Source of the DNA: Rubripirellula lacrimiformis
GTDB lineage: Bacteria > Planctomycetota > Planctomycetia > Pirellulales > Pirellulaceae
Direction of reading: 5' to 3'
DNA: 64,000 bases
Assembly (NCBI RefSeq): GCF_007741535.1
Contig: NZ_CP036525.1
Coordinates: 5,208,001-5,272,000 of the forward strand
Numbering within the stretch: the stretch's first letter is position 1; each line of letters starts with the position of its first letter. Below, piece by piece: positions 12,861 through 63,439 of the stretch. Both the position numbers and the translations under genes were made by a program. The notes under the pieces were generated by a model that worked only from the letters and a program-made list of their open reading frames with translations, was not told where the DNA came from and did no database searches.

Positions 12861-13793
12861 ATGTTCGCATCACGTGTTCCCATCGCTTTCGCACTGCTGT
12901 TCCTATCCGGATGCCGGATGGGCGCGCCGGTGCACCTATGGAAGCCACCATCGCTAGAGTCGACTGTCGGCAAACGGGTCGCGGTCGCCGAAGTTCTAGG
13001 GCCGAAAGAAATCGCCGGTCCGGTCCGACGCAAAATGTTGGCGTTGGCGCCGTCCGACGCTGGTCGCCAGATCGAAGCCTTGGCCCCCGAGTCGTTGGCA
13101 CAGCACGAGACGATCCGCTTGGTATCCGGCACCGACGAAGTCAACGATCTAGCGTTGGCCTCGGTCGCCAGACAAGAGGACGTGGATTATGTGCTTCGCG
13201 GCCAAGTCCTGTCGCGGCGTAGTCACCAAGAAGACCAGGACGAATTCGACTCCGCCGCCCCCTTGGCGGTATCTTGGCGATTGATGTCTGTCGCCGATGG
13301 ACGTCACGCCGGTGGTCGCCCCGTCGTCGTTGATCTCGAGACAGCTCGGAAAGACTATCCCGAACTAGCATTGATCGCTGACCCCGCCGAGGCGCTTGCG
13401 ACGGCGGCAGCGCGAGAAGCCTATCGGTTGGTCGCTCCTTCGGTCGTTCGCGAACGTGTCCAGATCGAAATCCCCTACCTATGGGCTGGCAGCAAAGAAG
13501 TACGGCGAGGCAACCTACTGGCTCGCAACGGAAAATGGGGCGAAGCTGAACAGGTATGGCAGAAGGTTTTCGACCAGCACCCCACACAGACCGCGGCGCT
13601 ACACAACCTAGCGATCGCTGCGGCCGCGGCACAGGACTTCTCGCTCGCCAAAGAACGCATCCGAAGAGTCATTCGGCGGCAACCCACACCGCTGCACAAA
13701 CAGTCCATGGCCTGGATTGAACAGCAGCAACGGAAGTACCACCAAGCGTTCGATCTGCCCGATCCACCCGAAGGCTGGTTCGTCACACGCTAG
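12861..13793 (+). CDS. Lipoprotein with C-terminal TPR-like region
   Basis: A 310-residue protein with a short signal peptide ending in a clear lipobox (FLSGC, Cys near residue 18). The middle part (VAVAEVLGP, VDYVLRGQVLSR, VSWRLMSVADGRHAG) resembles the CsgG/LpoB-like style of envelope proteins that begin with a 'variable-expression' beta fold; this is only a resemblance. The last 90 residues (LARNGKWGEAEQVWQKVFDQHPTQ, ALHNLAIAAAAAQDFSLAKE) form two TPR-like helical hairpins. It is divergent from the foldase gene and ends just before the palindrome array. No named family is claimed. Confidence 0.78.
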   Translation: MFASRVPIAFALLFLSGCRMGAPVHLWKPPSLESTVGKRVAVAEVLGPKEIAGPVRRKMLALAPSDAGRQIEALAPESLAQHETIRLVSGTDEVNDLALASVARQEDVDYVLRGQVLSRRSHQEDQDEFDSAAPLAVSWRLMSVADGRHAGGRPVVVDLETARKDYPELALIADPAEALATAAAREAYRLVAPSVVRERVQIEIPYLWAGSKEVRRGNLLARNGKWGEAEQVWQKVFDQHPTQTAALHNLAIAAAAAQDFSLAKERIRRVIRRQPTPLHKQSMAWIEQQQRKYHQAFDLPDPPEGWFVTR

Positions 13794-13868: not shown

Positions 13869-14173
13869 CGTTTAACCGCGTGGGCATCGCCCCGTGCGTC
13901 CACCCACCAAACGCGCGGCCCGGTGGGCACGCGGTCAAACGACTGACTCGGCTCGACCGCATATCGACCGCATATCGACCGCACATCGACCGCACATCGT
14001 TTAACCGCGTGGGCATCGCCCCGTGCGTCCACCCACCAAACCACCAAACCCATTGGCCACGCGATTTGACGAGCGTGCAAGAACCAAGTATCAAAAAGGA
14101 TCGTTTAGCCGCGCGGCAACGCCCCGCGCGTCCACCCTGCATCGCGCGGCCCTTTGGGCCCGTGGGGCAAACG
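13869..14173. repeat. Left REP-like palindrome array
   Basis: Three imperfect palindromes lie at 13869-13941, 13998-14071 and 14102-14173. Each begins CGTTTAACCGCGTG or a variant and ends with its complement (CACGCGGTCAAACG and decayed forms), with a GC-rich internal arm pair and a loop reading CCACCCACCAA. Between the first two is a run of four 11-bp repeats (CGACCGCATAT, about 13954-13997). The third copy ends about 20 bp before the transposase start and is the most diverged. Confidence 0.9.
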
Positions 14174-14194
14174 GTTCTAGCTGGGAGGAGCGTG

Positions 14195-14809
14195 ATGGTT
14201 CATGGATACCATGTTGTGTTTGGGACTTATGGATTTTGGCTTCCTAACGACCAACGCGGCTCTTGGTCCAACTTCATTGCGGTCTGGGAGCTGCGACTTC
14301 AGGGACCAACGACGAAAGGAACGGAGCGACAACAGCTAACGGACGAACAGCAGCGATGGCAGCAGTCGACAAAGCTGAAACTGCAGTACCCCGAGGTCCA
14401 TCTGGATGGGCAGCAGGCGCTGGCAATCGGGTGCGGTTTCAAGAACGCAATCCACAAAAGCAAGTTCACCATCTGGGCATGCTCGATCCTGCCACAACAC
14501 GTGCATTTGGTAATCGCCCGCCACCGCTTCAAGGTCGAGTACATCGCAGGATTGCTGAAGGGCGAAGCAACCAAAAAGCTAAACCAGCAAAAGTGTCATC
14601 CGCTTGCCGGTTACAAAACCAAGGAGAATGAGACACCGACTCCATGGACGGCAAGGTGCTATCGCGGCTTCCTGGAATCGGAACAGGAAATTGAAGATGC
14701 AATGTCCTACGTGATTGAGAATCCAATCAAAGAAGGAAAGAGAAGACAAAAGTGGAGCTTCGTCACACCATTCGTAGGGCTGGATCCCGGGTGGAACACC
14801 TACCAATGA
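14195..14809 (+). CDS. REP-associated tyrosine transposase (RAYT, Y1/HUH family)
   Basis: A 204-residue single-strand transposase related to IS200/IS605 TnpA. Family marks are the N-terminal HVVFGTYGFWL strand, the metal-binding HUH motif as H102-V-H104 in LPQHVHLVIA, and the putative catalytic tyrosine Y172 in MSYVIENPIKEG, the usual Y-x-x-x-NP segment. RAYTs are domesticated enzymes that bind and cleave REP palindromes in single-stranded form and are thought to spread them. ATG 14195 follows a strong GGGAGGAG site; a longer frame from about 13880 reads through palindromes. It is flanked on both sides by palindromes of one family, as expected of a REPtron. Confidence 0.9.
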   Translation: MVHGYHVVFGTYGFWLPNDQRGSWSNFIAVWELRLQGPTTKGTERQQLTDEQQRWQQSTKLKLQYPEVHLDGQQALAIGCGFKNAIHKSKFTIWACSILPQHVHLVIARHRFKVEYIAGLLKGEATKKLNQQKCHPLAGYKTKENETPTPWTARCYRGFLESEQEIEDAMSYVIENPIKEGKRRQKWSFVTPFVGLDPGWNTYQ

Positions 14810-14892
14810 CAGATGCATGGAGCGGCGAGGGGAAACGCGCGGCCCGGTGGTAGACGCGAGGGGACAGCGCATCAATCCACATCGACGCGCGT

Positions 14893-15590
14893 CGTTTAAC
14901 CGCGTGGGCAACGCCCCGTGCGTCCACCCACCAAACGCGCGGCCCGATGGGCACGCGGTTAAACGACTGGACCGCACGTCCACCCACCAGTACGCGCGGC
15001 CCGATGGGCACGCGGCTAAACGACAGACTCGGCTGGCCCCCAAATCCACACCCATCGTTTAACCGCGTGGGCATCGCCCCGTGCGTCCACCCACCAAACG
15101 CGCGGCCCGATGGGTACGCGGTGAAACGACAGACTCAGCTGGCCCCCAAATCCACCCCCATCGTTTAACCGCGTGGGCAACGCCCCGTGCGTCCATCCAC
15201 GCAAACGCGCGGCCCGATGGGCACGCGGTTAAACGACAGACTCGGCTGGCCCCCAAATCCACACCCATCGTTTAACCGCGTGGGCAACGCCCCGTGCGTC
15301 CACCCACCCAGACGCGCGGCCCGATGGGCACGCGGTTAAACGACTGGACCGCACGTCCACCCACCAGTACGCGCGGGCCGATGGGCACGCGGTTAAACGA
15401 CTGACAGGGCTCGACCGTGCGTCCATCCACCAATACGCGCGGCCCGATGGGCACGCGGTTAAACGACAGACTGGGCATCGCCCCGCACGTCCGTCCACCA
15501 AACGCGCGGCCCGATGGGCACGCGGCTAAACGACTGGACCTCGCGTCCACCCACCAGTACGCGCGGCCCGGTGGGCTCGCGGTGACACCG
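14893..15590. repeat. Right REP-like palindrome array
   Basis: Four full palindromes begin at 14893, 15056, 15162 and 15269, each 73-74 bp; the last three recur every 106-107 bp with a shared 33-bp spacer starting ACAGACTCGGCTGG. Between and after them are at least five half-units that keep only the right arm (ending ...GGGCACGCGGTTAAACG), at about 14966-15022 and 15343-15590. Outer stems are CGTTTAACCGCGTG and its exact complement. Copies are nearly identical, suggesting recent or ongoing amplification. The array ends before the acyltransferase gene. Confidence 0.92.
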
Positions 15591-15678: not shown

Positions 15679-16872
15679 CTATTGGGATTCGCCGTGGATG
15701 CTGTCTAGCATTCCTTGGACGCGGGCTTCGATCTGGGTCGTGATCTCGGTGGTTTGACCTTTGACTTTTTTGTCACCGATCACTTCGACGGCTTCGCCGA
15801 ACATCACCTTCACTTTGCGGCGGGCCTTGATTGATGCTGTTGGTTCCTTCAACACGTCTTCCTCGAACTTGTCAATCGTCTCGGCCACTCGCTCGATCGA
15901 TGGTTTGTCACCCACGTAGTCACCGGGGTAGCTGAACGACTGAACCACCAGAAACAGGTCCTCCAGATCGTCGTCCAAGCGTGACCTATCAGCATCGACG
16001 AGTTCATCGGCGGAACGTTTTTCGATGATGGCTTTGCGAGCGGCTTTGACACGTTCGGGGATCGACTTGTTGCCGCACGCCAGTTCATGCCTAGCTTCGA
16101 CAGCATCCAACACAAAATCACCAAACGCACGAATTCGCTCGGGCAATCGACCTGATTTCGTTTCTCCGTAGTATTCCAGTTCTTTGACCGCCAACAGGGC
16201 CTCGGCAAATCGATAGATTCGTTCTTCTAACGAACGGTTGGTCTGCCGACGCCAGAAGATCGACTCTTCCAAACGCCCCATCGTTTCGGTCAGAGCGGGT
16301 GTGGGGTCATCGACGTATCGGTACGAGATTGCACAGGGGATGCACACGATCGGGCGATCCGACTTTCGGGCCGCGGCGACAGCGATCGCAGCTGCACCCT
16401 CGCGAAACGGCGTCACCCGGTCGCTGCAGTGATAGATCTCGCCTTCGGGAAAGATCACCAGCGGATGTGGTTCCTGTTGCAACAGCCCGCTTGCCAATTT
16501 GAACGCACCGATGTCGTTAGCTTCGCGGTCCACGCTAAAACAGCCGTGCTTTCGAAGCAGCCACTGAACCAGACGCGACTTTTCATGAAACACGTGCCAG
16601 GTGGCCATCAATAGCAGCGGTGTCCCGATCAGGTCCGCCGCGGCATAGATAACATACGGATCGGCGTGCGACGAATGGTTGGGCATCAGCATGACGCCGT
16701 GCCCGGCGTCCAAATGTCGGCGGACGATGTCGTCCCCACTGACTTCGAAGTCGGCGATACAAACCTCGCGATTGCACTGCTGGGTGCGGAGCGATTTCAG
16801 CCAGCGCACCAGAGTCGGACTCAGCGATGGCTTCCAAACGTGCGGCGCGAAACGCATCCGGTAACGATTCAT
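15679..16872 (-). CDS. 1-acyl-glycerol-3-phosphate acyltransferase-like protein (PlsC domain)
   Basis: A 397-residue protein. The PlsC acyltransferase domain (about residues 40-230) shows the catalytic NHSSHADP (HX4D) block, a GCFSVDRE block, the FPEGE substrate-binding block, and a VCIPCAISYRY strand. The C-terminal 160 residues are a charged helical extension (KAARKAIIEKRSADELVDADRSRLDDDLEDL) not found in short PlsC enzymes. It is probably membrane-associated and acylates a glycerophosphate-type acceptor in lipid synthesis. It is the last gene of a same-strand run with gaps of 66-80 bp that begins with the AAA ATPase at 20257. Confidence 0.85.
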   Translation of the reverse strand: MNRYRMRFAPHVWKPSLSPTLVRWLKSLRTQQCNREVCIADFEVSGDDIVRRHLDAGHGVMLMPNHSSHADPYVIYAAADLIGTPLLLMATWHVFHEKSRLVQWLLRKHGCFSVDREANDIGAFKLASGLLQQEPHPLVIFPEGEIYHCSDRVTPFREGAAAIAVAAARKSDRPIVCIPCAISYRYVDDPTPALTETMGRLEESIFWRRQTNRSLEERIYRFAEALLAVKELEYYGETKSGRLPERIRAFGDFVLDAVEARHELACGNKSIPERVKAARKAIIEKRSADELVDADRSRLDDDLEDLFLVVQSFSYPGDYVGDKPSIERVAETIDKFEEDVLKEPTASIKARRKVKVMFGEAVEVIGDKKVKGQTTEITTQIEARVQGMLDSIHGESQ

Positions 16873-61590: not shown

Positions 61591-61810
61591 CCGTGTGCTC
61601 AGCGAGCCGCGCGTTTCACGAAAGCGCGCGGGGCGATGCCCACGCGGCTTGGCGATGCACATCGAAAACTGATCTTCGACTGCTCTCGTTTAACCGCGTG
61701 CCCAGCGGGCCGCGCGTTTCACGAAAGCGCGCGGGGCGATGCCCACGCGGTTAAACGACGCATACCGAAAACTGATCCACGACTGCTCTCGTTTAACCGC
61801 GTGCCCAGCG
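61591..61810. repeat. REP-like palindromes beside the insertion sequence
   Basis: A decayed copy lies at about 61591-61650. An intact 71-bp palindrome lies at 61687-61757, with CGTTTAACCGCGTG outer stems and a loop built on TTTCACGAAAG. The left half of a third copy is at 61790-61810. Copies 2 and 3 start 103 bp apart. The outer stems equal those of the arrays around the RAYT gene, whereas the loop differs from the CCACCCACCAA loop there. Confidence 0.88.
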
Positions 61811-63384: not shown

Positions 63385-63439
63385 CAGCGGGCCGCGCGTT
63401 TCACAAAAGCGCGCGGGGCGATGCCCACGCGGTCAAACG
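63385..63439. repeat. Right half of the split palindrome
   Basis: Begins with the CAGCG target duplication and continues GGCCGCGCG to GGTCAAACG at 63439. It completes the palindrome whose left half ends at 61810; the arm has a T-to-C change (GGTCAAACG instead of GGTTAAACG). Confidence 0.88.

Follow-up and report, generated by a model that had tools for sequence, protein, structure and literature searches.

The window analysed here, a 64-kb piece of the 8.54-Mb single contig of Rubripirellula lacrimiformis, carries a locus that we read as a REPtron: a divergent, single-copy gene for a repetitive extragenic palindrome (REP)-associated tyrosine transposase (RAYT), called P0001, lies inside arrays of its own family of REPINs, i.e., pairs of inverted REPs. 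Including the mode of spread proposed below, we give this reading a probability of about 0.8. The REP arms begin with GTTTAAC, and those of relatives with GTTTAAC or GTTTAGC (together GTTTARC), a tag that belongs to neither of the published superfamilies of tagged REPs, GTAG and CGTC (Di Nocera et al. 2013, PMC3733652). We consider it somewhat probable that GTTTA[AG]C marks a third such superfamily across Planctomycetota, with its own subclass of RAYT that would read the tag without the GTAG-binding residues. In the genome studied, the repeats of this candidate superfamily form heterodimers in long directional arrays, whose embedded RAYT could be deleted, leaving the repeats orphaned.

REPtrons and REPINs are an already known kind of system. 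As in the RAYT/TnpA-REP REPtrons of Escherichia coli, Pseudomonas fluorescens SBW25, and Stenotrophomonas, there is one HUH/Y1 gene per repeat type, and inverted REP pairs stand around the gene and throughout the genome. The variant with a GTTTARC tag and a RAYT is one that we did not recognize in the literature on RAYTs, REPtrons, and planctomycete palindromes, as far as the main text of PMC3733652 and PMC6006769 is concerned. Parts of it may have been seen before, because PMC3733652 names repeats of R. baltica, where many tyrosine transposases have flanking repeats. The GTAG and CGTC families are also short tagged hairpins, often in opposite-facing pairs, and planctomycetes are named among their hosts; the CGTC REPs are given in that main text without an associated transposase, whereas the GTTTARC REPs have one.

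Organization of the locus

P0001 lies between three units on the left and four units plus four right-hand half units on the right, an array layout that the motif positions confirm as originally predicted. Allowing up to 3 mismatches, CGTTTAACCGCGTG starts at 13869, 13998, 14102, 14893, 15056, 15162, and 15269, and the inverted arm at 13928, 14058, 14952, 15009, 15115, 15222, 15329, 15386, 15452, and 15519; the right arm of the third left unit exceeds 3 mismatches to the inverted-arm motif. The last three right units indeed repeat every 106 to 107 bp, and some 20 bp separate the nearest copy from the start codon at 14195. Both arrays share one direction. The features are as follows (window positions).

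14195..14809, + strand: P0001, RAYT-like HUH/Y1 transposase gene, 204 residues (H102, H104, W151, Y172, N176, P177), from profile, predicted fold, and conservation in 74 aligned proteins
13869..13941, + strand: left REPIN 1, G-type arm then C-type arm (defined below)
13998..14071, + strand: left REPIN 2, right arm degenerate (3 mismatches)
14102..14173, + strand: left REPIN 3, both arms degenerate, right end placed by eye
14893..14965, + strand: right REPIN 1
15009..15022, - strand: lone arm, 14-nt tag end, C-type by eye
15056..15128, + strand: right REPIN 2
15162..15235, + strand: right REPIN 3
15269..15342, + strand: right REPIN 4
15386..15399, - strand: lone arm
15452..15465, - strand: lone arm
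15519..15532, - strand: lone arm
12861..13793, + strand: P0003, the gene bordering the insertion on the left; lipoprotein-like by inspection
15679..16872, - strand: P0002, the gene bordering the insertion on the right; acyltransferase-like by inspection

P0003 and P0002 are thus convergent neighbors enclosing the RAYT and its arrays. The same repeat recurs at one more small site of the window, 61687..61803 (+), with arms at 61687 (forward), 61744 (reverse), and 61790 (forward), and a single further arm at 63426..63439 (-), 1.6 kb beyond it.

The repeat unit

The palindrome of 73 to 74 bp is a REPIN: two REP arms, each about 30 nt long, in inverted orientation. Every arm opens with the 5' tag CGTTTAAC and continues as a short hairpin whose loop has 3 nt; this hairpin is supported by the changes in its stem and not by folding energy. 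All 213 paired units in the sample from the R. lacrimiformis genome have two inverted arms and a short spacer; in the first part of that sample, 172 of 186 units measure 72 to 76 bp (range, 71 to 84). Pairing of the 4-bp stem is kept at 95 to 98% across 454 arms, and its two middle pairs switch, the first being G-C in 228 arms vs C-G in 207 and the second dividing 218 vs 218. The units are heterodimers: one G-type arm (GGGC/GCCC) is joined to one C-type arm (GCCC/GGGC) in each of the 175 fully typed units, a count that leaves aside 38 further units with one untyped arm. Two species of another genus, G206 and G205, also have mixed units (14/14 and 5/5 fully typed units, respectively), and the two arm forms are somewhat like the dimorphic REPs of enterobacteria (PMC2817692). 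The original prediction had taken the palindrome as longer than a REP and, for this reason, as an unusual RAYT substrate class of planctomycetes. The length argument falls, since each arm has ordinary REP size and REP doublets with spacings of 71 and 110 bp are known in P. fluorescens (PMC3116915). The idea of an unusual class is nevertheless supported, on other grounds: the GTTTAAC/GTTTAGC tag in combination with the RAYT clade described below, in which the GTAG-linked residues WQ are missing.

Several observations weigh against this picture of the unit. In the congener G021, the units consist of two G-type arms (5/5, at sites picked for their listed matches); the mixed make-up therefore does not hold generally. 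A lone G-type arm is no stabler than its shuffles (z, -0.17), five arms of relatives behave like theirs (z, -0.17 to 0.55), and the C-type arm alone is modestly stabler (z, -2.0). Strong folding is seen for the entire unit, as a single long hairpin (z, -5.1), so folding energy favors the single-hairpin structure of the original prediction. We prefer the arm hairpins because the stem pairs switch within arms. The letters CGTC do occur on the 3' side of many G-type arms and not in the common C-type arms, hence CGTC is not the shared tag.

The transposase

Homologues of P0001 align from its residue 1, which supports the 204-residue start. Among 74 aligned proteins, the catalytic residues H102 and Y172 are present in all and H104, likewise catalytic, in 72; the three occur jointly in 72, P0001 included, which bears out the HUH/Y1 protein originally proposed. 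P0001 matches the RAYT model NF047646 (REP_Tyr_transpos) with an E value of 4.4e-12 and 46 bits, under the cut-off of 80, so that we call it a divergent RAYT-like protein and place it outside that curated family; with Pfam Y1_Tnp it reaches 2.5e-4 and 21.6 bits (cut-off, 23). Its predicted fold matches 4er8 plus the IS608 and ISDra2 transposases, i.e., the Y1 HUH fold. The 4er8 fold and the motif NP.[KR].G after the tyrosine (57/74) are shared with known RAYTs. GTAG-type systems differ in combining a GT[AG]G tag with the guide-binding residues WQ; here, the residue after W151 is A, S, G, T, N, or V, and Q never follows W in the 74 aligned rows. The conserved N-terminal threonine described in PMC2817692 is not found as such in the 74 proteins, where residue 11 varies.

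A closer comparison is with TnpAY1 class 3 (Quentin et al. 2018, PMC6006769), whose hosts are Planctomycetes, Acidobacteria, and Proteobacteria. As in that class, the proteins come mainly from planctomycetes, show extended N-terminal conservation, often have T or A after the tryptophan (49/74), and lie among atypical flanking structures that reach high copy numbers in some genomes. By its description, class 3 is nonetheless set apart, with the motif YV[VI][AENY]EQ around the tyrosine, an NHVH form of HUH, and a CnGA foot. Our proteins have N at Y+4 (74/74), P at Y+5 (72/74), mostly [EQD]H[VT]H, and a GTTTARC foot.

The protein could also belong to an insertion sequence of the IS200/IS605 type, with the gene and its end palindromes moving as one unit. 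Such elements are mobile as a whole and usually present in several copies. The HUH/Y1 fold, with IS608 and ISDra2 among the closest solved structures, and the lineage-specific insertion between P0003 and P0002 would agree with this. We nevertheless regard it as very improbable: the R. lacrimiformis genome gave a single P0001 match but roughly a thousand matches to the arms, no genome was seen here to hold multiple identical copies of the gene with shared ends, the RAYT model gives P0001 46 bits vs 23 from the IS200 model, and its tyrosine motif is YVxxNP where class 1 in PMC6006769 has a Q form. Among the other RAYT-like matches of the same genome, one (L038, C1:1371943-1375119) has three GTTTAGC words in its locus.

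Association of the tag with RAYTs in relatives

A scan across named genomes gave 255 related stretches, of which 80 were kept, 79 planctomycete-named and 1 Vicinamibacteraceae-named; together with the window, they yield 75 non-redundant loci (<90% identity). The arrangement around these homologues is similar. The pattern GTTT[AC][AG]C, selected after the flanks had been viewed, lies within 400 bp of the RAYT gene in 68 of the 75 loci and on both sides in 61; in a control zone 700 to 1100 bp away, which some loci are too short to reach, it was found in 20 loci and on both sides in 1. An unbiased count of 7-mers in the 75 loci put TCGTTTA (37 loci), GTTTAAC (35), and GTTTAGC (33) at the top, and the density of exact GTTTAAC falls from 4.42/kb at 0 to 150 bp to 0.07/kb at 1000 to 1500 bp (80 loci). 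The hairpins vary from locus to locus and the tag stays constant. Tag type tracks the RAYT tree, with 5 changes for GTTTAAC vs 25.0 in shuffles, on a quick tree in which 35 of 72 inner branches are weak. Six loci without GTTTAAC or GTTTAGC (L111, L112, L114, L138, L109, and L152) have, by eye, the related words GTGTAGC, GTTAGC, or GTTTGAC in its position; there may thus be further variants of the tag.

Genomic copies and arrays

The R. lacrimiformis genome contains 576+545 arm matches (1121) at up to 2 mismatches vs 43+39 (82) for the motif read backwards, and 464+455 vs 2+2 at up to 1 mismatch. This excess means that the repeats are not due to chance. Together with the profile and fold matches, the single gene copy, the repeats on both sides, and the similar arrangement around homologues, it upholds the REPtron-like character originally proposed for the locus.

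The copies are concentrated in arrays. We sampled 40 evenly spaced stretches of 20 kb and then 40 more (1.6 Mb in total). In the first 40, 117 of 119 arms lie within 8 clusters of at least 4 arms, and in all 80, 131 of 141 lie within 10 such clusters. The arm density of the second set is too low, since three grid points partly covered by other fetched sequence were swapped out and two of them hold arrays. Within an array, the units run head to tail in constant direction and with a nearly constant period (96, 97, 104, 121, 123 bp, etc.). This differs from SBW25, where 61% of REPs are doublets and 18% singlets, and where the largest ordered REPIN cluster has four REPINs and one REP (PMC3116915).

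Proposed mode of spread

By analogy with TnpA-REP of E. coli and Stenotrophomonas, the enzyme would bind the arm while the DNA is single-stranded, which probably happens at replication forks, read the tag and the hairpin, cut beside the arm via Tyr172, and rejoin the strands, so that REPINs could be copied or transferred to other sites. Head-to-tail arrays may then arise by a second process (recombination between direct repeats, slippage, or repeated action of the enzyme) that multiplies a REPIN along with its local linker. The arrays on the two flanks of the RAYT share one direction, so they could recombine with each other, deleting the gene and leaving one REPIN.

Two results on the arrays, and those on RAYT-less genomes given below, count against this reading. 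Linkers are more similar inside arrays (0.84) than between them (0.47; 21 arrays), the pattern expected of local tandem duplication and not of many separate insertions. Furthermore, the orientation of the repeats relative to replication shows no significant bias (p = 0.07, or 0.41 with neighbors merged).

In the literature compared here, recognition by RAYTs has been worked out for GTAG-type REPs only. A clade with another tag and many natural pairs of enzyme and repeat, each with its own hairpin, makes the choice of repeat by RAYTs, and its spread, directly testable by swaps of tags and hairpins.

Repeats with and without the RAYT

We called genomes repeat-rich when they had at least 15 copies by two patterns, a threshold set after the counts were known and applied to a hand-made table. 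In the family, 33 of 241 genomes have a P0001 homologue (E ≤ 1e-10). Of these 33, 24 are repeat-rich, compared with 22 of the 208 others (Fisher, 1.6e-13, not corrected for relatedness); the other 9 are not repeat-rich by these patterns. The 22 mean that the repeats often exist lacking this RAYT. They include the single-contig genomes G204 (100% complete) and G205 (99%; 237 matches) and the congener G021 (99%, 310 contigs), which has 587 matches. A profile search of the 22 genomes found only distant Y1 genes, in 10 of them, and GTTTAAC was in none of the fetched loci of these genes. The original prediction had held that equal abundance of the palindrome in related genomes that never had a RAYT would refute it; this is partly what G021 and G205 show, and loss is a good explanation for G205, which has a REPIN precisely where its congener G206 has the RAYT.

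This site adjoins a gene that three species of one genus share at 99% identity over its last 399 residues. Beside it, G206 carries array, RAYT, and array, and G205 a single mixed REPIN (by eye); G204 has no arm within 1.5 kb of the gene. The odd outer left arm of G206, with CCGCGGCCC after the tag, is the left arm of the G205 REPIN, and the sequence beyond the last right arm runs on alike in both (by eye). Past the gene, G204 has a sequence of different appearance and hence does not represent a clean empty site. The simplest reading is that G205 lost its RAYT by recombination between the outer REPINs, because its 237 matches are present; alternatively, G206 may have gained the RAYT. Such a loss would be one route by which repeat-rich genomes end up RAYT-less. 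For G021 and most of the other RAYT-less repeat-rich genomes, loss is only a possible explanation.

In the genus of R. lacrimiformis, a P0001 homologue was found in 1 of 22 genomes. The matches of P0003 and P0002 lie no more than about 60 bp apart in two of them (G011 and G018) vs 1885 bp in the window, so the RAYT block is specific to the window's lineage. In the 11 other genomes with an orthologue of P0002 (about 66 to 82% identical), the flank that was fetched showed no P0003.

These distributions raise the possibility that the repeats are host-maintained or selfish satellites growing by recombination, and the RAYT a passenger inserted next to or into an existing array. The 22 RAYT-less repeat-rich genomes, the tandem-like arrays with local linkers, and the 587 matches of G021 in a genus where one genome has the RAYT would fit. 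We find this unlikely, given that the same tag class stands on both sides of the RAYT in 61 of 75 loci and tracks its tree, and that P0001 homologues occur in 24 of 46 repeat-rich genomes vs 9 of 195 others. The RAYT could instead have been the source once, of arrays now kept by selection because they serve the host as terminators or as nucleoid or gyrase sites, roles cited for REPs in PMC6006769. Copies persisting without a RAYT and stem pairing held through compensating changes could be explained in this way; yet species of one genus range from no arm to arrays at a single site (G204, G205, G206), which leaves such a role rather doubtful. We retain the REPtron, with REPINs most likely spread by the RAYT, as our reading of the locus.

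In G021, the arms are found in small groups of one to four (L263-L269), unlike the mixed arrays of R. lacrimiformis. The same genome has another Y1 gene (L071, G021:C261, ~46-2120) around which a different palindrome, ATACAAGCTCGACGCGCAAGCGAGTG and its complement, is present in several copies (by eye); this suggests a second pair of RAYT and repeat.
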